Source: Desulfobulbaceae bacterium (GTDB taxonomy: Bacteria; Desulfobacterota; Desulfobulbia; Desulfobulbales; Desulfocapsaceae). Taken from it: DNA of 43,078 nucleotides. Below the pieces are notes generated by a model, which was not told the origin of the DNA, did no database searches, and saw only the letters and a list, made by a program, of their open reading frames with translations. The stretch is taken from positions 1 through 43,078 of the forward strand of contig JALSMA010000054.1 of the NCBI GenBank assembly GCA_026988015.1, written 5' to 3'. Below, one piece after another: positions 9,697-23,803 of the stretch. The first letter of the stretch is position 1, and each line of letters starts with the position of its first letter. A program made the translations under genes and the position numbers.

Positions 9697-10080
9697 TCAT
9701 GGCGGAGGCGGATGATTTTCTGCTACATTGTTCTCTGACATGAAACCATAACGGTTTTCCATCGTATTTTTATCTTTTGGCGGTGGCTTTTGCTCAACTG
9801 GTGGTCTGAATATTCGACACTTCGGCTTCCACTATGTCCTGATCCGAACATTGCTTAAAATCATTTGCAGGCCGAGACGTACATGACCTGCGGTAACGCA
9901 TAAGCGACTGACAATATCTGCGTCCAACAATGCAGAACCTGCCTGGATTGTTTTCATGAGCCTTTCCAACCTCATCTCTTTGCGTAGTAGATGAATATTT
10001 GCTGGGGCATTAGGCTGCTCCCCCTGTGTCAGGATCACATGTTGCTTGCTTAAATTGCAAATTTTATCTTCGAACCGCAA
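9697..10080 (-). pseudogene. Unrecognised coding-like frame broken by an amber codon
   Basis: A minus-strand frame from ATG at 10080 runs 82 codons to TAG (9832-9834). It then continues in the same frame for 44 more codons to TGA (9697-9699), ending in the proline-rich segments FRPPVEQKPPPKDK and ENHPPPP. I recognise no family. A third open piece in another frame (10107 to about 10239), ending ENGNGFVIEVQFALPDS, lies just upstream. It vaguely resembles the last strand of a histidine-kinase ATPase domain. The stretch most simply reads as a decayed gene downstream of glgX. The rest of the 9549-10233 interval holds nothing I can support. Confidence 0.3.
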
Positions 10081-13897: not shown

Positions 13898-14737
13898 TTA
13901 AATGTCCGGGTTGTTCTCAAGTAACCTGGCACCAGCAATTCCGGGCTGCTGCAGGCTTGACTGCACGATCTGCAGGTTTCGCATTGACGGTGCAAATGCA
14001 AATTCCGGCAGCCGGGTTTGGAGAAGAGTGACCAGATAGTCATTATGATTCACAACACCGCCACCCAGCACCAGTATCTCGGGGTTGCTAAGAGTTACTA
14101 GGGTCGCGGCCGCAAAAAACAGGGCTTCCTCAAACTGCTTTTTGATCTCTCTTCCTGCTTCACTTCGCTCAAGCAGGGGGAAGCTGAGGTCCCCCTCAAT
14201 ATGATGATACCGCATCCATCTCTCAAGGCCTGATCCTGACGCATAGAGTTCCAGGCAGTTGTTTTTTCCGCAACCGCAGGTGAATGGTGTCTGACGGTGA
14301 GGGATATGACCAATTTCAAATGCCTGGTTCCCTGCTCCCCGGATGAGTTTCCCATGATCAACAACAGCACTGCCGGTCCCGGTTCCGATATAGAGAGCGG
14401 CTATGTTTTTACAGTTGCAGAAATCGGCTTCGGCCATTATCGCGCAGTTCAGGTCGTTGTCGATTTCAAGACGAAGGTCATAGCGTGATTCGAAATGTTC
14501 TTTGATGTTCCTGGTGCTGACCTTGATGTTCGGTGCCGACAATATGATACCATCATGTACCTGACCCGCATAGGATATGCCGATAAATCCTATCTCGGGA
14601 TGCTCTCTCAGTAGTGACTCGATATAGTCAACAAGATCATACATTTTAGAACTTCGCACATCTTCCAGGATGATCTCACCGTCATGCAGTTCGCTGCGAA
14701 GTTGGGTGCCACCAATGTCTATACAAAGTTTCTTCAT
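13898..14737 (-). CDS. ROK-family sugar kinase, probable glucokinase
   Basis: Phosphorylates glucose (probable) with ATP to glucose-6-phosphate. The 279-aa product has an N-terminal phosphate-binding motif CIDIGGTQLR, a catalytic Asp95 in IDNDLNCA, and ALYIGTGTGSAVV. The ROK signature around EIGHIPH is followed by the zinc site CGCGKNNC (Cys154, 156, 161 with His144/147). The ATG at 14737 lies 13 bases after the malQ stop and puts the DIGGT motif at residue 7. An earlier ATG at 14788 would overlap malQ. With malQ next door releasing free glucose, glucokinase is the best reading, but other hexoses remain possible. The gene ends with the stop codon inside a small hairpin (CGGAC/GTCCG). Confidence 0.85.
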   Translation of the reverse strand: MKKLCIDIGGTQLRSELHDGEIILEDVRSSKMYDLVDYIESLLREHPEIGFIGISYAGQVHDGIILSAPNIKVSTRNIKEHFESRYDLRLEIDNDLNCAIMAEADFCNCKNIAALYIGTGTGSAVVDHGKLIRGAGNQAFEIGHIPHRQTPFTCGCGKNNCLELYASGSGLERWMRYHHIEGDLSFPLLERSEAGREIKKQFEEALFFAAATLVTLSNPEILVLGGGVVNHNDYLVTLLQTRLPEFAFAPSMRNLQIVQSSLQQPGIAGARLLENNPDI

Positions 14738-14750
14738 ACAGTCGTCGCTG

Positions 14751-16289
14751 CTATTTGGTTTCGTCGGTGTCATTTTTACCTTCAGCACCTGTCCGGCCGT
14801 AGAGCTGTGTCATTTGCAACAGATCCTCTGTAAGGGTCGGGGAAAGATCCCTTTCTGAAAATCGGTACTGCCAGTTGCCGTCGGGTTTTCCCGGCTGGTT
14901 CATCCGTCCTTCATTGCCAAGACCAAACAGATCCTGCAGGGGAAAGATTGCTAGATGGGCAACGGAGGCCAGGGCTGTACGAATCATGTCTCTGTGGATC
15001 ATAACTCCATCTGTATTGAGATAGCGTCGTGTGAAATCCCTTACCTCTTCCGGCTGTTTATCCCACCATCCCCTGATGGTATCGTTGTCATGGGTACCAG
15101 TGTAAACAACCTGATTGTTAATGTGGTGTTGGGGCAGGAAGGAAGAACTGTTCAACCCGCCCTGAACGGCCTCAAAACCAAACTGGAGGATCGCCATACC
15201 AGGAAAGCCAAGTTCTTCCAGCATCTTGGTGACATCAGGTGTTATAATACCAAGATCCTCGGCAATAATCGGTACTTCAGTGCCTATTGCCAGTGCTATG
15301 GCCTTGAAAAGATCGACCCCCGGACCTTTCTTCCAGATGCCGTTGATGGCCGTCTCTTCATCTCCGGGAATTTCCCAGTTGCTGGCAAAACCTCTAAAGT
15401 GATCTATACGAATCAGGTCAAACATATGAGCAAGCAATTTGAAACGTTTGACCCAGAATGAATAGTTTTCTTTCTTGAGCTGTTTCCAGTTAAACAGAGG
15501 ATTGCCCCAACGCTGTCCGGTTTCACTGAAATAATCAGGGGGGACACCTGATACGACTGTGGGATTACCTTTTGTGTCCAGGTAAAACCATTCAGGATGA
15601 CTCCAGACATCGCTGGAATCATGGGCAACAAAAATTGGGATATCACCAATGATCCTGACGTCTCTGGAGGATGCATAGCTGTGTAGCTTCTCCCATTGGT
15701 CAAAGAACAGAAATTGCACAAAATGACTTCTCTCGATTTCGTTTTTGAGTTTTCTGGACCAGTCTGCAAGTGCCTTCGGCTTTCGCTGAACCAGCTCACG
15801 AGGCCAGCTTGTCCAGGATTGCCATTGATGAGCCCCTTTCAGTGCAGCAAACAAGCAGAAATCATTCAGCCAGTACTTATGTTTGTTACAAAACTGTTTG
15901 TAGCGTTTAGTAAGGGCTAGAGGTCTGTTGGTCAGAAAATTTGCATAGGCTTTTTGCAGAAGCTGGATTTTAAAAGGGATAACATTTTCAAAATCCACAT
16001 GGGTATCTGGAAAGGATGGTTTTACAATGTCCTTATTGTCTAATAATCCTTCATCAAGGAGGAGGTCTGGACTGATAAGCATGGGGTTGCCGGCAAAGGC
16101 AGAGAGGGCCTGGTAGGGAGAGTCGCCATATCCAGTAGGTCCAAGTGGAAGTATTTGCCAGATACTTTGCCCGGAAGCATGGAGGAAATCGATAAATCGA
16201 TAGGCGCCCGGACCAAAATCGCCGATTCCCCACTCTGACGGCAGGGAGGTTGGGTGCAATAAAATTCCGCTGGTTCTTGGTCTTGTCAT
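14751..16289 (-). CDS. malQ: 4-alpha-glucanotransferase (amylomaltase)
   Basis: A GH77 enzyme that disproportionates maltodextrins, giving glucose and longer chains that phosphorylase can use. The product has 512 aa, as usual for bacterial MalQ. The nucleophile Asp296 lies in LIRIDHFRGF, the acid Glu344 in IIAEDLG, and the third acid Asp401 in YTGTHDNDT. The N-terminus GILLHPTSLPSEWGIGDFG and YGDSPYQALSAFAGNPML are family hallmarks. It lies 28 bases downstream of the zwf fragment and 13 bases upstream of the ROK kinase, on the same strand. It is thus probably part of one transcript that mobilises glycogen. Confidence 0.95.
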   Translation of the reverse strand: MTRPRTSGILLHPTSLPSEWGIGDFGPGAYRFIDFLHASGQSIWQILPLGPTGYGDSPYQALSAFAGNPMLISPDLLLDEGLLDNKDIVKPSFPDTHVDFENVIPFKIQLLQKAYANFLTNRPLALTKRYKQFCNKHKYWLNDFCLFAALKGAHQWQSWTSWPRELVQRKPKALADWSRKLKNEIERSHFVQFLFFDQWEKLHSYASSRDVRIIGDIPIFVAHDSSDVWSHPEWFYLDTKGNPTVVSGVPPDYFSETGQRWGNPLFNWKQLKKENYSFWVKRFKLLAHMFDLIRIDHFRGFASNWEIPGDEETAINGIWKKGPGVDLFKAIALAIGTEVPIIAEDLGIITPDVTKMLEELGFPGMAILQFGFEAVQGGLNSSSFLPQHHINNQVVYTGTHDNDTIRGWWDKQPEEVRDFTRRYLNTDGVMIHRDMIRTALASVAHLAIFPLQDLFGLGNEGRMNQPGKPDGNWQYRFSERDLSPTLTEDLLQMTQLYGRTGAEGKNDTDETK

Positions 16290-16317
16290 CTGTTTGAATT
16301 CTCAATAAGTAATGATT

Positions 16318-16482
16318 TTATCCTTCCCATTTCCGACCGTCACGGGCCAGCAGAGACACCGAAGCTGCTGACCCCCAACTTCTCGCTGGATAGGACTTTG
16401 CCGGTTCGTTACACTGAGCCCATGCCTCCTGAATGGAATCGATCCATTTCCAGGATCGCTCCCCCTCGTCCACGGTCAATGG
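16318..16482 (-). pseudogene. zwf: C-terminal fragment of glucose-6-phosphate dehydrogenase (zwf)
   Basis: Directly after the glgP stop codon, and in the same frame, 54 codons read through to TAA at 16318-16320. The predicted residues include RSWKWIDSIQEAW, then YPARSWGSAASVSLLARDG and a final KWEG. This is the extreme C-terminus of Zwf: compare the family pattern WkWiDpIleaW...YpaGSWGPaaadaLlaRDGr.W. Everything upstream, including the NADP-binding and catalytic domains, is missing. The piece cannot be functional. Its place between glgP and malQ, in a cluster that also holds edd and eda, indicates that a complete zwf once stood here and was lost by deletion. The last residues of GlgP (DGVLFTPREP) could themselves derive from the zwf side of the junction. 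Confidence 0.82.
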
Positions 16483-18996
16483 TTACGGTTCGCGCGGAGT
16501 AAAGAGGACACCATCCTCTGGAAGTTGTTTCCATTTTAATTCCACCGGGAAGGGTTTCACATCCCATATTTTCCTGGAATAATCCATGATAGAACGATCT
16601 GATGAAAACTTTCCCATGCGGACTGCATTCAAAATAGACACCCGGGTCCAGTTCTTTGTGTCCTGAAAGGCTTTTCCCACAAGGTCCTGACAGTCAATAT
16701 AAGCTCTGTAGTCGGCAAAGAGAGTGTACTGATCGTCAAAGAGCAGTGAATCAACAATGGGTCTGAACAGTTCCTGATCACCGTGTGAAAAATGGCCAGA
16801 GGCAATCAGGTCAATGGCGCTTTTCAATTCAGCATCGCCCTGATAATAATCTTTGGGGTTATATCCGCGGGATTGGAGCTCCATAACCTCTTCAACGCTC
16901 AACCCAAAGAGAAAGAAATTTTCTGGACCGACTTCTTCACGGATCTCCACGTTTGCGCCATCCAGAGTGCCAATGGTTAAGGCACCATTCATGGAAAATT
17001 TCATGTTGCCGGTACCTGATGCTTCCATGCCCGCCTGAGATATCTGTTCGGACAGATCGGTCATGGGATACACTGAATGACCTATTTTGACGTTGTAGTT
17101 GGGAACAAAAAAGACTTTCAGACGATCTGCGACGTCGGGATCATTATTGACTACGCCCGCGACGGAAGTAATCAGTTTAATCATCCGCTTAGCCATAAAG
17201 TAACCGGGTGCAGCTTTGCCGCCAAAGATGAAGAGGCGAGGAGTTATTTCGATTTCGGGGTTGGCTTTAATCCGATTATAGAGAGTAATGATATGCAAGA
17301 CATTGAGGTGTTGTCGTTTATACTCATGAATTCGTTTCACCTGCACATCGAACATGGCCCTAGGGTCAACCACCAGATCCATATGTTTTTTTATTTTATC
17401 AGCGGCATCCTGTTTGTTATCTTCTTTGACCTTGAGCCAGGCATCCTGGAAAGAAGAATCATCAGCCATCTTTTCCAGTTTCTTCAGGTCGTCAAGGTCG
17501 GTGAGCCACTTCTCACCAATGGCCTCTGTGATAAGTGTTGTTAACCTGGGATTACTCACCGCAATCCACCGTCGCGGGGTGACTCCGTTGGTCACATTAC
17601 GAATTTTTCCGGGGTACATTTCATTGAAATCTGCCAGGGTATGTTTGCGCAGCAAGTCGGTATGCATGGCTGCTACTCCGTTGATGGCCTTGGAACCGAC
17701 ACAGGCCATGTTCGCCATTCGTATATAGCGGGGACCCGATTCATCAATAATAGACATACGGCTTAATCGCTCATTGTCACCAGGATATTTCATGCGGACT
17801 TCGTCCATAAATCGGCTGTTGATCTCAAAGATTATTTCTAAATGTCTGGGCAGAAGGCTGCCGAAGAGATCGATCTGCCACTTTTCCATGGCCTCGGGAA
17901 GAAGGGTATGGTTGGTGTAGCACAGGGTTTTTGTGGTAATCTTCCAGGCGCTGTCCCAGTCGTACAGATGGACATCCATCAGAAGGTGCATCAGCTCAGG
18001 TATAGCAACTGACGGATGTGTGTCGTTGAGTTGGCCCTGAAAACAATCATGGAGATTATCAAGGTTGTCGTAAGAGAACAGGTGAATACGGATCATATCC
18101 TGTAGAGAACAGGAGACGAAAAAATACTGCTGTTCCAGGCGTAGCTTTTTTCCCTTAAACTGCTCATCGTTGGGATAGAGAACTTTTGTGATAGTCTCCG
18201 CGTGGATTTTTTCTTCTACGGCGCCGTAATAATCACCAGTGTTAAAGTCTGCAAAATCGAAGGAACTATGGGCCTCAGCGCTCCACAAACGAAGCAGATT
18301 GACATTGTTGACCTTAAATCCAGGAATCGGCGTGTCATAGGGAATGCCGATAACTACCCTTCCGGGAACCCAGCGAGAGCGGCGATTACCTCTTTCACTA
18401 TGATATATTTCCGTGTAGCCTCCAAACCCAACGTTACAGGTTAGATCTGATTTTTTGATCTCCCAGGGATTTCCAGGGCGCAGCCAGCGATCGCTGATTT
18501 CTTTCTGCCAGCCGCCCACAATTTCCTGATCAAACATGCCATACTCATAGCGAATACCATAACCAATAGCAGGAATCTGCAGAGAAGCAAGGGAATCCAG
18601 ATAACAGGCAGCAAGCCTTCCCAGGCCGCCATTGCCTAACCCAGGCTCCTCTTCATGGTCAATAAGTTCCTGTAAATCAAGACCACTTTCTTTAGCAGCT
18701 TGAGCAAAATCATCATAGAGACCAAGGTTAACGAGGTTGTTATGGAGATGCGGACCCATAAGAAATTCTGCTGACAGATAGCAGACAATTTTTGAGTCCT
18801 TATCAAGCAGTGCCTCCACCGAATTCACAAAGAGATGCTGCATGCGATCCCGAAGGGTGCTGGATACAGCAAGGAAGCAATCATTAAGGCTTGCTGTGCG
18901 TGTGGTTGTTCCCTGTTTGTAGAAGATATTGTAGGCAAAGGCTCTTTTGAGTTTTGCTATGCGATCTTTTTGCTTGTTATTTGATTTTGTACTCAT
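16483..18996 (-). CDS. glgP: Glycogen/starch/alpha-glucan phosphorylase
   Basis: A GT35 enzyme releasing glucose-1-phosphate from the non-reducing ends of glycogen. The product has 837 aa. The pyridoxal-phosphate lysine is Lys666 in EASGTGNMKFSMNGALTIGTLDG, and N-terminal GNGGLGRLAACYLDSLA and GYGIRYEYGMF are the family glucan-site motifs. The ATG at 18996 has AAGGAGA six bases upstream. The C-terminal tail after WDVKPFPVELK is about 15 residues longer than I expect for the family. It runs straight into the zwf fragment with only one TAA between, so the deletion that destroyed zwf may have replaced the native GlgP end. The eda gene ends 60 bases upstream. Confidence 0.95.
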   Translation of the reverse strand: MSTKSNNKQKDRIAKLKRAFAYNIFYKQGTTTRTASLNDCFLAVSSTLRDRMQHLFVNSVEALLDKDSKIVCYLSAEFLMGPHLHNNLVNLGLYDDFAQAAKESGLDLQELIDHEEEPGLGNGGLGRLAACYLDSLASLQIPAIGYGIRYEYGMFDQEIVGGWQKEISDRWLRPGNPWEIKKSDLTCNVGFGGYTEIYHSERGNRRSRWVPGRVVIGIPYDTPIPGFKVNNVNLLRLWSAEAHSSFDFADFNTGDYYGAVEEKIHAETITKVLYPNDEQFKGKKLRLEQQYFFVSCSLQDMIRIHLFSYDNLDNLHDCFQGQLNDTHPSVAIPELMHLLMDVHLYDWDSAWKITTKTLCYTNHTLLPEAMEKWQIDLFGSLLPRHLEIIFEINSRFMDEVRMKYPGDNERLSRMSIIDESGPRYIRMANMACVGSKAINGVAAMHTDLLRKHTLADFNEMYPGKIRNVTNGVTPRRWIAVSNPRLTTLITEAIGEKWLTDLDDLKKLEKMADDSSFQDAWLKVKEDNKQDAADKIKKHMDLVVDPRAMFDVQVKRIHEYKRQHLNVLHIITLYNRIKANPEIEITPRLFIFGGKAAPGYFMAKRMIKLITSVAGVVNNDPDVADRLKVFFVPNYNVKIGHSVYPMTDLSEQISQAGMEASGTGNMKFSMNGALTIGTLDGANVEIREEVGPENFFLFGLSVEEVMELQSRGYNPKDYYQGDAELKSAIDLIASGHFSHGDQELFRPIVDSLLFDDQYTLFADYRAYIDCQDLVGKAFQDTKNWTRVSILNAVRMGKFSSDRSIMDYSRKIWDVKPFPVELKWKQLPEDGVLFTPREP

Positions 18997-19056: not shown

Positions 19057-19695
19057 CTACGCACCGACAGACCGAGCCAGATTGGTTATTTTTTGCCAGT
19101 CACCCTGTTCAAGAGCATTAGTTGGTGCAAGCCATGAACCGCCAACACATGCAACATTTTTCAGTTTCAAGTAATCCCTGTAGTTGTTAGGTGATATGCC
19201 GCCGGTGGGACAGAAAGTTGCCTGTGGAAAGGGGCCGCCAATGGACTTTATCATCTTGATACCACCTACAGCTTCCGCAGGGTAAAATTTGAATTCCCGG
19301 AAATCATACTCTATGCCGAGCATCAGTTCAGAGGCAGTTGAGATACCGGGAATCAGGGCGATAGAGCCGTTCAGGGCAGCTGTAAGAAGGGTCGGCGTCA
19401 GTCCCGGACTGATGGCAAAAACACCACCAGCTTTGGTAACTGCGTCTAAATCAGCTCGTGTGGTCACAGTTCCGGCACCGACAACGGCACCTTGGACTTC
19501 TGCTGCAATCCTTCTGATAGCCTCAATGGCCACCGGGGTACGAAGAGTCACTTCCAATACTTTCACCCCGCCGGCAACAAGTGCCTTGGCAAGGGGAACG
19601 GCATGCTCAATATTGTTGATGACAATCACCGGAACAACGGGGCCGGTTTGCAAGACATCCAGGGCGCTCAGTTTCCAGTTTGTTCTCTTTGACAT
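19057..19695 (-). CDS. eda: 2-keto-3-deoxy-6-phosphogluconate aldolase
   Basis: Splits KDPG into pyruvate and glyceraldehyde-3-phosphate, the second step of the Entner-Doudoroff route. The product has 212 aa. The Schiff-base lysine is Lys136 in FKFYPAE, the general base is Glu48 in LEVTLRTP, and the phosphate-binding region is [10 protein letters not shown] followed by [15 protein letters not shown]. It starts 21 bases after the edd stop, so the two are clearly an operon. The upstream ribosome-binding site is poor, so translation may be coupled to edd. Confidence 0.95.
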
Positions 19696-19716: not shown

Positions 19717-21546
19717 TTAGTTTTCATCAGTATAGGTGAAGATTGAGCTTGCCCCTTCTTCAGCGCCCGATAGGTCTTTACGCAAAGGGGCAAAAATCTG
19801 TCTGCCCAGTCCGTAACGGTTGGTGTCAAGATCATATTTACAGGGCCCGCGCTGCTCCAGTTCCAGCTTATCTACTTTCAGTTCTAAAATACTGTTATGG
19901 GCATCCATAAGGATAATATCCCCATCCTGCACCTTGGCTAGTAAGCCACCAGTAACGGCCTCAGGAGTACAGTGGATGGCAAAGGGTACCTTGCCGGAAG
20001 CACCTGAAAGTCTCCCATCAGTGACAAGGCCTACAGTATACCCCCGATCCATGGTGATGGAAAGATGAGTGATTAATTTATGCAGCTCCGGCATCCCGTT
20101 ACCACGTGGGCCCTGAAAGCGGACAACCGCCACCATGTCTCGATTTAATTTACCTGCCTTGAAGGCATCTTCGAGCTCCTGCTGGCTGTTGAAAACCATG
20201 GCAGGTGCTTTAACAAAAGTCTTCTCCCCATTAGCAAGGGCCGATATTTTCATAATTGCCCGGCCAAGATTACCGGACAGCACTTTAATTCCGCCCATTG
20301 TCTCGAATGGGTCTGTCACCGTTGAAATAATTGTTGGATCTCCTGTCTGCTGCGGGCCTTTCTTCCATGTTGCTTTGTTATCTTTAAGTGCTGGTTTTTC
20401 AGTGTATCTTGCAAATCCTTTTCCAGCTACGGTTTGCACATCTTCGTGAATTAGTCCGCCTTCCAGTAATTCCTTAATAAGAAGGGCCATTCCTCCGGCC
20501 TGCTGAAAAGAATTAATATCACCAGAACCGTTAGGATAGATACGCACCAGTAGGGGGGTGATATCCGATATTTCTGCAAAATCATTCCAGTCAATACGTA
20601 TTCCGGCAGCATGGGCAATGGCCACCAAGTGCATTGTTTCATTGGTCGATCCGCCTGTAGCCATAAGACCGACAATGGCGTTGATAATCGATTTTTCACT
20701 GATGACCTGAGACAGTGGGGTGTAGTCTGTGCCAAGGTGAGTCAGTGAGGTGATTTGTTCGGCAGCGGATCTGGTGAGCGCGTCACGCAATTTGGTTCCG
20801 GCATTGACAAATGAACTGCCCGGCAGATGCATCCCCAGCATTTCCGCCATAAGCTGATTGGAGTTAGCCGTTCCGTAAAAGGTACAGGTTCCTGGACTGT
20901 GGTAGGCTTTGGTCTCTGAGGAGAGGAGTTCGTCATGTCCGATCTCTCCTTTGGCAAAAGCCTCCCGAACCTTGTTTTTATCTTTATTGGTAATGCCGGA
21001 AGTCATGGGCCCTGCAGGAATAAGGATCATGGGGAGATAGCCAAATTGCAGGCCGCCCATCAGTAAACCTGGTAAGATTTTGTCACATACGCCAAGAAGG
21101 ATGGCACCGTCGAAGACATTATGGGAAAGTCCGATAACCGTGGACATGGCAATAACATCACGGCTCATCAGGCTCATGTCCATTCCGGGTTCTCCTTGGG
21201 TGACTCCGTCACACATGGCTGGAACTCCGCCGGCAAACTGAGCATTGCCTCCTGCCCTTGCAACGGATGCTTTGATGAGAGCAGGGTATGCACCGTATGG
21301 CTGATGCGCCGAGACCATATCATTGTATGCTGATATGATACCAATGTTGGGCGTCTGGTCATTTAGAAGCGCACTGCGACAGGTACCGACACACCCTGCG
21401 AGATCGTGAGCCAAGTTGGAACAGGGGAGATTATTACGAAAAACCCCATTGCTTTTGGCAGATTCCATCCGCTGCAGGTACAGTTGACGATGCGGTTTGC
21501 TCCGTTCTATGATACGCTCGGTGACTTGTTGGACTGTTCTATGCAC
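19717..21546 (-). CDS. edd: 6-phosphogluconate dehydratase
   Basis: Converts 6-phosphogluconate to KDPG, the first committed Entner-Doudoroff step. It is a 4Fe-4S enzyme of the IlvD/Edd family. The 609 aa match the Edd subgroup in length. Characteristic pieces are SAYNDMVSAHQPYGAYP, CDGVTQGEPGMDMSLMSRD, GVCDKILPGLLMG, GTCTFYGTANSNQL (a cluster cysteine) and DGRLSGASGKVPFAIH. The start is GTG at 21546 with GGGAGAG about 6 bases upstream. The resulting N-terminus aligns with the known start pattern VTxRIIERS. The aldehyde oxidoreductase gene ends 92 bases upstream on the same strand. Confidence 0.95.
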   Translation of the reverse strand: MHRTVQQVTERIIERSKPHRQLYLQRMESAKSNGVFRNNLPCSNLAHDLAGCVGTCRSALLNDQTPNIGIISAYNDMVSAHQPYGAYPALIKASVARAGGNAQFAGGVPAMCDGVTQGEPGMDMSLMSRDVIAMSTVIGLSHNVFDGAILLGVCDKILPGLLMGGLQFGYLPMILIPAGPMTSGITNKDKNKVREAFAKGEIGHDELLSSETKAYHSPGTCTFYGTANSNQLMAEMLGMHLPGSSFVNAGTKLRDALTRSAAEQITSLTHLGTDYTPLSQVISEKSIINAIVGLMATGGSTNETMHLVAIAHAAGIRIDWNDFAEISDITPLLVRIYPNGSGDINSFQQAGGMALLIKELLEGGLIHEDVQTVAGKGFARYTEKPALKDNKATWKKGPQQTGDPTIISTVTDPFETMGGIKVLSGNLGRAIMKISALANGEKTFVKAPAMVFNSQQELEDAFKAGKLNRDMVAVVRFQGPRGNGMPELHKLITHLSITMDRGYTVGLVTDGRLSGASGKVPFAIHCTPEAVTGGLLAKVQDGDIILMDAHNSILELKVDKLELEQRGPCKYDLDTNRYGLGRQIFAPLRKDLSGAEEGASSIFTYTDEN

Positions 21547-21638: not shown

Positions 21639-23378
21639 TCATGCTCCTGCAAGGCCCATGATGGCTTTTCCATATTCACTTTTTAAGTTGTTAAGATAGT
21701 CCGGATCTATGGGACCTTTCCAGGTTTTGATCTTAAAAAATCGTTTTGGAATGGTAGTTCCTTCAGGGGAGAATCCGGTTGCAATTCGAGTCTGCCAGCG
21801 CAGTTTCTGGATGTGTTTGCCAAGAGGATCAATACTTGCGGCCAGTTCCGGATATCCTATAGAATGAAGGCAGTCAGCAAGGAGTTCCTCCTTGTATACG
21901 CCTCTGGCAAAAAGGCAGGCAACCATGGAGGTCATAAAGGCACGCCCTGCCTCATCATTGATCAGGAAATCTACAGCTCCCCTGATGTCTTGATCTGAAT
22001 GTTTCTGGTCGTAGGAGTAGGCTCCGCTATCAAGGTGCGAATGCCTGAAGCCCAGTGACTGGGCAGCAAAAAAGACCTCACCTGTGGCGTATCCCGCCAT
22101 TTCCTGACCTAGTACACATGCGAAATCAACACCGCCGTATTCTCGAGCTGCTTTGAGGCTTCCCTGGCCAAGCAGTCTGTAAAAATCGTTTACCCCGTTT
22201 CCAAGCATCTCTGTTGCCAACTGGTAGCCCTCAGCATCTCCAAAGGAGAGTCTCACCCCGCTCTCTTTCTCTGAGATAAACCCTTTCTCAGTGGCTTCTG
22301 TGGCCCAGGCCAGGGCAACTCCACCTGACATGGCATCCAGGCCGGCCTTTTCCATAAGGTCAAGAATGTTGAGAATGGCACGGGTCTCTGTTACCCCTAA
22401 CATGGTACCCAGTGAGAATATCATCTCATAATCATAGGCGACCTGTTTAAACGTGTAACGATGATTAGCATCAAACATTTCCCGTACGAAGCCGACATGA
22501 ATACAGCCTACAGGACATCCAGAGCAGGCGGAGTTGCGGAGCAGGTTGTCCGTGGCAAATCGCTCACCATTAATTTTATCAATGGCCGGATCACTGGTGG
22601 CCTGCAGGTTGCGCCAAGGCAGGGACTTGATATCATTTAATCCCTGCAGGTTTGCCGGGGTACCAAGGTTATGATATTTCTTCATCATATCAGTGGCTGT
22701 GACTTGTTGATAAACTTTTTCAAAGAGCTTGTTGTACTCTTTATTCTTAATTCCAGGAAAAATGGCATCGCCATGAATGAGAATGGCTTTGCAGTTCTTG
22801 GCACCGAGTGCTGCACCGCCGCCAAGTCGACCAAAGTGCCGGTAAGTGTCCACATTTATATTGGCCATGGCAGAACCATTTTCACCGGCAGGGCCAATGC
22901 GGAGAGTGGTTCGGTGTCCGGAGCCTTTAGAAATAGTCCGTAAAATTTTGCCACTTTCATCCACAGTCATTCCCTTCATAAAGGAAACATCTTTGATTTC
23001 AAGGGATCTGGAACTTATACTCACACAGCAGAGTCGTTTCGCCTTTCCGATAATGACCAATGCGTCAAGGTTTGCAAAGAAGAGAGATAGTGCAGACCGT
23101 CCTCCGGCATGGCTCTCGGTGTACTGGTCATGATAGGGAGATTTAAAGCTGCAGACCGTTTTACTCATCAGCGGGAAATATCCGGTGAGGGGCCCAATGG
23201 CAAAGATGACTGGTTGGCGGGGGTCATTCCAGGGATGTTCCGGCAAGCCATATTTATTAAACAGCAGTGCGGCAAGTCCACTTCCCCCAGCTTCACTGTT
23301 GCGGCCGTCAAGATGGACAATTTCTCCTTTTCTGGAGGACAGGTTCACTGCTAAAACTCTAAAATGATCACGAATCAT
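21639..23378 (-). CDS. Aldehyde ferredoxin oxidoreductase family, tungsten/molybdenum catalytic subunit
   Basis: A tungstopterin (or molybdopterin) enzyme oxidising an aldehyde to an acid with ferredoxin as acceptor. The product has 579 aa. The N-terminal AOR domain carries the pterin-binding stretch ESHAGGRSALSLFFANLDALVI. The 4Fe-4S ligands are Cys285, Cys288 and Cys292 in CSGCPVGC, plus a distal Cys488. The ATG at 23378 overlaps the stop of the four-cluster Fe-S gene (TGATG) and has GGAGG eight bases upstream. The two-subunit arrangement matches bacterial AorAB and the GorSL/XorSL enzymes of Caldicellulosiruptor, one of which oxidises glyceraldehyde-3-phosphate. Sitting directly before edd-eda, this enzyme may oxidise the glyceraldehyde-3-phosphate they produce. 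That substrate is inference, and acetaldehyde or other aldehydes are alternatives. Confidence 0.9.
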   Translation of the reverse strand: MIRDHFRVLAVNLSSRKGEIVHLDGRNSEAGGSGLAALLFNKYGLPEHPWNDPRQPVIFAIGPLTGYFPLMSKTVCSFKSPYHDQYTESHAGGRSALSLFFANLDALVIIGKAKRLCCVSISSRSLEIKDVSFMKGMTVDESGKILRTISKGSGHRTTLRIGPAGENGSAMANINVDTYRHFGRLGGGAALGAKNCKAILIHGDAIFPGIKNKEYNKLFEKVYQQVTATDMMKKYHNLGTPANLQGLNDIKSLPWRNLQATSDPAIDKINGERFATDNLLRNSACSGCPVGCIHVGFVREMFDANHRYTFKQVAYDYEMIFSLGTMLGVTETRAILNILDLMEKAGLDAMSGGVALAWATEATEKGFISEKESGVRLSFGDAEGYQLATEMLGNGVNDFYRLLGQGSLKAAREYGGVDFACVLGQEMAGYATGEVFFAAQSLGFRHSHLDSGAYSYDQKHSDQDIRGAVDFLINDEAGRAFMTSMVACLFARGVYKEELLADCLHSIGYPELAASIDPLGKHIQKLRWQTRIATGFSPEGTTIPKRFFKIKTWKGPIDPDYLNNLKSEYGKAIMGLAGA

Positions 23379-23803
23379 CAATTTTCCTCCGCAGTTGCAG
23401 CCGTCTTCACTTCTTCCATTTCAAGACAGTTGTGGGGACAGAAATCAACACAGCGTCCACAATGGATGCAGACATAAACCGCCCCGCTGTGATCTTGAGA
23501 AACAGCACCAATGGGGCAGGCGGTAACGCACTCGCCACAGTCGATGCAGAGTTTTTTCTTTACAATTACCCCTCCGCCTTTGCGTTGAGAAAAGGCGCCA
23601 GTAGGGCAGGCAGTGGCACAGGGTGCAGGATTACAGGCAAGGCAGTAAATTGCCTGGAATCCTGTAGTGAGCCCTCCGGAGGACTTGATGCGAATTCCGG
23701 CTGTGTCCCAGGATATCTGTTTGTGAACCAGCCTTGCGCATGTCAGGGAACAGGAATGACATCCGATACAACGATCAATCCTGGGTGCGGTTAATTTTTT
23801 CAT
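23378..23803 (-). CDS. Four-cluster [4Fe-4S] ferredoxin-like electron-transfer subunit of the AOR
   Basis: A 141-aa protein with sixteen cysteines arranged as four 4Fe-4S sites: Cys12/15/18/22, Cys54/57/62/66, Cys86/89/92/96 and Cys112/115/118/122. The last two are standard CxxCxxCxxxCP motifs, and the second has the CxxCxxxxCxxxCP spacing of DmsB/HycB-type subunits. It would pass electrons from the AOR active site to ferredoxin or another partner. The gene overlaps the AOR start by one base, so the two subunits are coupled and probably form a complex, as with the small subunit of AorAB and GorSL. No FAD/NAD subunit (AorC type) is adjacent. It is the first gene of the - strand carbon cluster. 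Confidence 0.88.
   Translation of the reverse strand: MKKLTAPRIDRCIGCHSCSLTCARLVHKQISWDTAGIRIKSSGGLTTGFQAIYCLACNPAPCATACPTGAFSQRKGGGVIVKKKLCIDCGECVTACPIGAVSQDHSGAVYVCIHCGRCVDFCPHNCLEMEEVKTAATAEEN

Follow-up and report, generated by a model that had tools for sequence, protein, structure and literature searches.

Positions 16318–16482 of the window, by which we mean the whole 43,078-nucleotide contig (C54 of genome G000, a Desulfobulbaceae bacterium), very probably hold what remains, at the 3' end, of a redundant second zwf once adjoining glgP, while the other zwf of the genome, located on contig C73 in a pta-pyk-zwf cluster, has been kept. Truncated pseudogenes, or gene remnants, are a known kind of sequence in bacteria, and the segment resembles them in its partial deletion, in changes at invariant residues, in the decay seen in a sister genome (G010) and in having a functional homologue elsewhere. 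No feature that sets it apart from them was found. The remnant frame is still open and in phase with glgP. In kind this is an ordinary gene loss. At the level of titles and abstracts, nothing was found in the literature on a glgP-zwf remnant locus. The locus shows, on a small scale but clearly, how operons turn over in relatives of Desulfocapsa and other Desulfobulbaceae, and can be used in reconstructing the loss of redundant central-metabolism genes.

The segment behind glgP

The open frames around the remnant are glgP, malQ, glk, eda and edd, where the names of the last four are our assumption, and the features are as follows.

13898–14788, minus strand: glk-like gene, after malQ in the window and in G010
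14751–16289, minus strand: malQ-like gene, at the place of pyk, pgl or glgX after zwf in relatives
16290–16317, minus strand: 28-bp spacer from the zwf stop to the start of malQ, in part conserved also in G010
16318–16482, minus strand: zwf remnant, 54 codons and a stop, Zwf-homologous at 16321–16470 and with non-homologous leader codons at 16471–16482
16483–18996, minus strand: glgP (glycogen/alpha-glucan phosphorylase, 837 aa), intact, with a C-terminus ordinary for its clade
19057–19695, minus strand: eda-like gene, intact frame
19717–21546, minus strand: edd-like gene, 609 aa, intact frame

The 54 codons at 16321–16482 (minus strand), followed by a stop at 16318, translate as PLTVDEGERSWKWIDSIQEAWAQCNEPAKSYPARSWGSAASVSLLARDGRKWEG* and lie immediately 3' of the glgP stop in the phase of glgP (frame 2). 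The first-pass annotation took this frame for the end of glucose-6-phosphate dehydrogenase, left as a scrap by a deletion, and the profile comparisons confirm the identity and support the deletion. The segment matches positions 249–296 of the 296 in Pfam G6PD_C (PF02781; E 9.5e-9, 35.2 bits with a cut-off of 27) and positions 435–484 of the 486 in TIGR00871 (zwf; E 7.9e-9), and the match is clearly above chance. As a full-length Zwf it fails, with 34.7 bits against an equivalog cut-off of 400.6; its 50 homologous residues correspond to the C-terminus of the family, whereas about 434 N-terminal positions are lacking, hence also the coenzyme-binding domain and the catalytic residues. The first four residues (PLTV) are unlike those of Zwf at that place (FIRR or similar), the likeness starts at DEGERSW, and the stop codon is found at the same place as in the Zwf of G016. 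No other pieces of zwf or pyk were found between window positions 10000 and 24500 at E 0.05 or below, the best being a pyk match at 0.052.

It had also been proposed that an unusual GlgP tail may mark the deletion junction. This is ruled out, as the motif LKxxxLPxxG is common to all 20 readable GlgP ends (of 21), which vary beyond it.

The gene order of the window is fer-aor-edd-eda-glgP-[scrap]-malQ-glk-ackA-glgX, and G010 is identical from aor onward. The malQ type, taken at 74% identity or more, is restricted to G000, G010 (88%) and G014 (74%), with all other matches in the 56 genomes at 51% or below, and the divergent malQ of the window was perhaps acquired. The only other match to edd within the genome is 32% identical. 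Beside edd-eda, at 21639–23803, are genes that we take to be aldehyde-ferredoxin-oxidoreductase-like and ferredoxin-like, and such genes are also found near glgP in G006, G009, G012 and G017; a ferredoxin-linked step in the Entner-Doudoroff pathway is possible.

glgP and zwf in related genomes

The closest holders of the window-type glgP are assigned to Desulfobulbaceae, Desulfocapsa, Desulfobulbus, Desulfofustis or Deltaproteobacteria, and G000 presumably shares its genus with Desulfocapsa. From 80 loci 51 were taken, omitting L171 and L172, which are cut within glgP, and L190–L216, which are 62–65% identical, and as L152 was too short 50 were tested. A zwf on the same strand follows glgP in 19 of the 50 (three of them truncated where the contig ends), one locus (L139, in G046) has a remnant in two pieces, and the other 30 gave no match at E 0.1; among six further glgP regions put through the same test only the window has a zwf match. 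A zwf behind glgP is also present in G004, G005, G006, G009 and G067, where G004, G005 and G067 overlap the 50 loci. The 37 regions that do not have a full zwf include a remnant only in the window, in L139 and, by DNA alignment, in L137 (G010), the rest having been searched at the protein level, and no other short zwf segment behind glgP was found in the 50 loci and the six further regions.

With the remnant as query, 31 matches were obtained in 29 of 115 genomes, and all except those in the window and in G046:C197 are in frames of at least 392 aa. A small gene conserved as such in many relatives, the alternative that the first-pass annotation had named against its own reading, is therefore rejected. 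In G046:C197 (genus g15; L098 3243–3525, the same locus as L139) the N-terminal 37 and the C-terminal 65 codons of Zwf are located behind glgP in different frames, and this loss is a separate, internal deletion.

The same-genus genomes G006 and G009 have the order fer-aor-edd-eda-glgP-zwf-pyk-ackA, G005 has edd-eda-glgP-zwf-pyk-glgX and G004 has glgP-zwf-glgX, the genes presumably being correctly named from their homology to those of the window. In five relatives that were inspected, the start of zwf either overlaps the stop of glgP (L138, L144 and L148) or is located 2 bp behind it (L142 and L143), indicating that zwf is probably translationally coupled to glgP. As zwf is out of phase with glgP in all five, the phase shared by the remnant and glgP in the window is a product of the deletion, with a one-in-three chance of arising. 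A redundant zwf, probably coupled in this way, would once have been located directly 3' of glgP, and a deletion reaching approximately from the stop codon of glgP to profile position 435 of zwf would have taken away the coenzyme domain together with most of the catalytic one, with malQ-glk now standing where pyk, pgl or glgX would follow zwf. In what order zwf was deleted and malQ-glk inserted is inferred, and the redundancy of the gene would be the reason that it was dispensable.

The intact zwf and the source of the second copy

Seen alone, the window suggests a broken Entner-Doudoroff pathway, and the first-pass annotation had held the glucose-6-phosphate dehydrogenase to be missing, or the pathway to be rewired. 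A search of the genome (3.15 Mb) for intact zwf and pgl found both and corrects this false gap. An intact zwf is located at G000:C73:5162–6604 (510 aa and free of internal stops, 620 bits) as the last gene of guaA-pta-pyk-zwf, and a pgl at G000:C45:44964–45605 (181 bits, cut-off 124) directly behind a second glgP. With zwf, pgl, edd and eda all present in the genome, the predicted Entner-Doudoroff route has, on paper, every step from glucose-6-phosphate onward; the dehydrogenase would be supplied by C73, the lactonase by C45 and Edd and Eda by the window. A rewired pathway presupposes a genome lacking zwf and is rejected in view of the C73 gene. No match to gnd (6-phosphogluconate dehydrogenase, PF00393) was found in G000; nine of 14 control genomes gave a match.

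At the amino-acid level the remnant shares 67% identity with the Zwf of C73 in its own genome and 82% with that of G016, with 118 of 153 nucleotides shared with the zwf of G016, a gene that adjoins pgl and not glgP. Support for grouping the remnant with G016 is 86 in the protein tree and 96 in the nucleotide tree of one data set, and 89 in a larger tree. In the larger tree the remnant belongs to a 14-member clade, with a support of 96, that also includes zwf located beside glgP in other genera, for example L159 (Electronema) and L162, a placement based on 50 residues on a long branch and with a support within the clade of only 46–61. The C73 zwf is found within a clade of 12 pta-linked zwf of the genus, with a support of 100 in all three trees and the remnant outside. 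Five divergent Zwf (G028, G066, G069, G106 and G113) were left out of the trees, the zwf of G067 (L138 in the larger tree) is cut before the region covered by the remnant, and the GlgP tree of the larger data set takes in only pieces longer than 1500 nt. Because the scrap and the C73 gene differ in lineage, both by identity and in the trees, the phylogeny indicates that the scrap is what is left of another zwf, since lost, and not the former site of the present gene. A recent duplicate of the C73 zwf is rejected on the same evidence.

In the genus (G000–G019), 18 genomes have one zwf besides the stub (in G010 it is truncated where the contig ends), while two are present in G007 and none in G019, which is 72% complete. 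The gene is near pta in G000, G002, G003, G007, G008, G010, G011, G012, G013, G015, G017 and G018, it is behind glgP or a remnant of glgP in G001, G004, G005, G006 and G009, and it is located behind eda in G014 and behind pgl in G016. In G001:C234 (L116 5847–11090) the last 32 codons of glgP are followed by an intact zwf, one pyk and two ackA fragments, and then by glgX in two matched pieces.

How one genome came to have two zwf can be explained in more than one way, each compatible with the loss of a redundant copy. The glgP-zwf pair may well, with a probability a little short of even, have been exchanged horizontally between the lineage of G000 and G010 and genus g15 (G067 and G046), placing a second zwf in a genome with the pta-linked copy. 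The GlgP of these four genomes form one clade (support 89), and the GlgP of the window is 86–87% identical to those of G067 and G046 in spite of their belonging to another genus, for which CarB is only 79–80% identical, whereas the GlgP of the same-genus genomes G011, G018, G017, G004 and G005 are at 82–84%. However, the next GlgP branch is the same-genus G017 (88), so that g15 may have been the receiver, in which case the exchange does not explain two zwf in G000, and the nearest relative of the scrap is the zwf of the same-genus G016, next to pgl and not glgP.

Old paralogues are nearly as likely as transfer; here the ancestor of the genus would have had one zwf beside glgP and another beside pta-pyk, and each lineage would have kept one. 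This is in line with the 12 of 20 genus genomes in which zwf is near pta, forming a single clade at a support of 100, with the five in which it is directly behind glgP or its remnant, with the single intact zwf in 18 of the 20, and with G001 as a mirror case, where the 32-codon tail of glgP precedes an intact zwf. The GlgP identities across genera as compared with CarB speak against it, as does the finding that no genus genome examined has both kinds of zwf intact, the second zwf of G007 being only 37% identical.

More tentatively, the Entner-Doudoroff/glycogen cluster might in this genus have been exchanged repeatedly between lineages, with each genome purging the duplicate it did not need and leaving mirror-image scraps, so that zwf would alternate in single copy between two chromosomal homes. 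The scraps in question are the zwf tail behind glgP in the window and in G010, the two ends of zwf left in G046 of a neighbouring genus, and, around the zwf of G001, the glgP tail with pieces of pyk and ackA.

The first-pass annotation had also considered that zwf moved elsewhere, that is, that a single ancestral zwf was transferred from behind glgP to the pta-pyk cluster with its tail left in place. An intact zwf is indeed located elsewhere, and such a move would give the single intact copy that 18 of the 20 genus genomes have, but the scrap and the C73 gene are only 67% identical at their shared end and belong to separate clades, which makes a move very improbable.

Decay of the remnant

Although the remnant passes the Pfam cut-off for the conserved C-terminal region, it breaks seven of 33 residues at which 18 Zwf of the same genus do not vary, while intact Zwf in a leave-one-out control break 0 to 2 of 33–35. 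Its dN/dS to intact relatives is 0.11–0.12, computable in three of the 12 printed pairs as synonymous sites are saturated in most, and is thereby close to the median among intact genes, 0.09 (131 pairs). Compared with G016, eight non-synonymous and 14 synonymous changes are placed on the side of the scrap, and three and 10, respectively, on the side of G016. The remnant thus does not look unconstrained overall and most of its divergence probably predates the loss of the gene, having arisen while it was functional, and a relaxation of selection may be seen in a few residues.

In the sister genome glgP and malQ are 173 bp apart, compared to 193 bp in the window, and the last 42 bp of zwf can be recognized, with 31 of 42 positions identical and one of 2000 shuffles as good; with the C-terminus of G016 as query the match is weaker (56 of 2000). 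The 14 recognizable codons keep the zwf frame and its stop, but are out of phase with glgP and preceded by three in-frame stops. Protein searches gave no match in G010 at E 0.001, nor, for the same locus as L137, at E 0.1, and its remnant is therefore identified by the DNA alignment and the shared position. Together with the loss of most of the gene and the intact homologue at the same place in relatives, this further decay indicates that the remnant of the window is a decaying pseudogene and not a gene, presumably with no function.

That the scrap has been kept for a purpose, as a small peptide coupled to glgP translation or as a part of the malQ leader, is very unlikely. In its favour are the open, in-phase frame, in which TTG and GTG codons come soon after the stop of glgP, and the stretch adjoining malQ, which is the part still alike in G010; nevertheless, most of the G010 spacer has no matching frame, invariant residues have been substituted, no ribosome site is seen by eye in the leader, and except for G046 no relative has a separate small gene of this kind. 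An assembly or binning artefact can practically be dismissed even with the genome in 91 contigs, as completeness is 99.82% and contamination 0.46%, and a separate genome, G010, has the same order glgP-spacer-malQ-glk-ackA-glgX with a homologous remnant.

Some other interrupted frames were seen among the genomes compared. A second glgP in G010 (C82:4973–7464) is in two overlapping pieces in different frames, perhaps due to a frameshift or an assembly error. In G111:C252 (25266–29214) the neighbouring glgP and zwf matches have one in-frame TAG each, and TAG read-through is possible. The carB matches in several genomes of family f1 (for example G053, G060, G029, G040 and G024) contain one or two in-frame TGA, where either alignment past the stop or recoding is possible.
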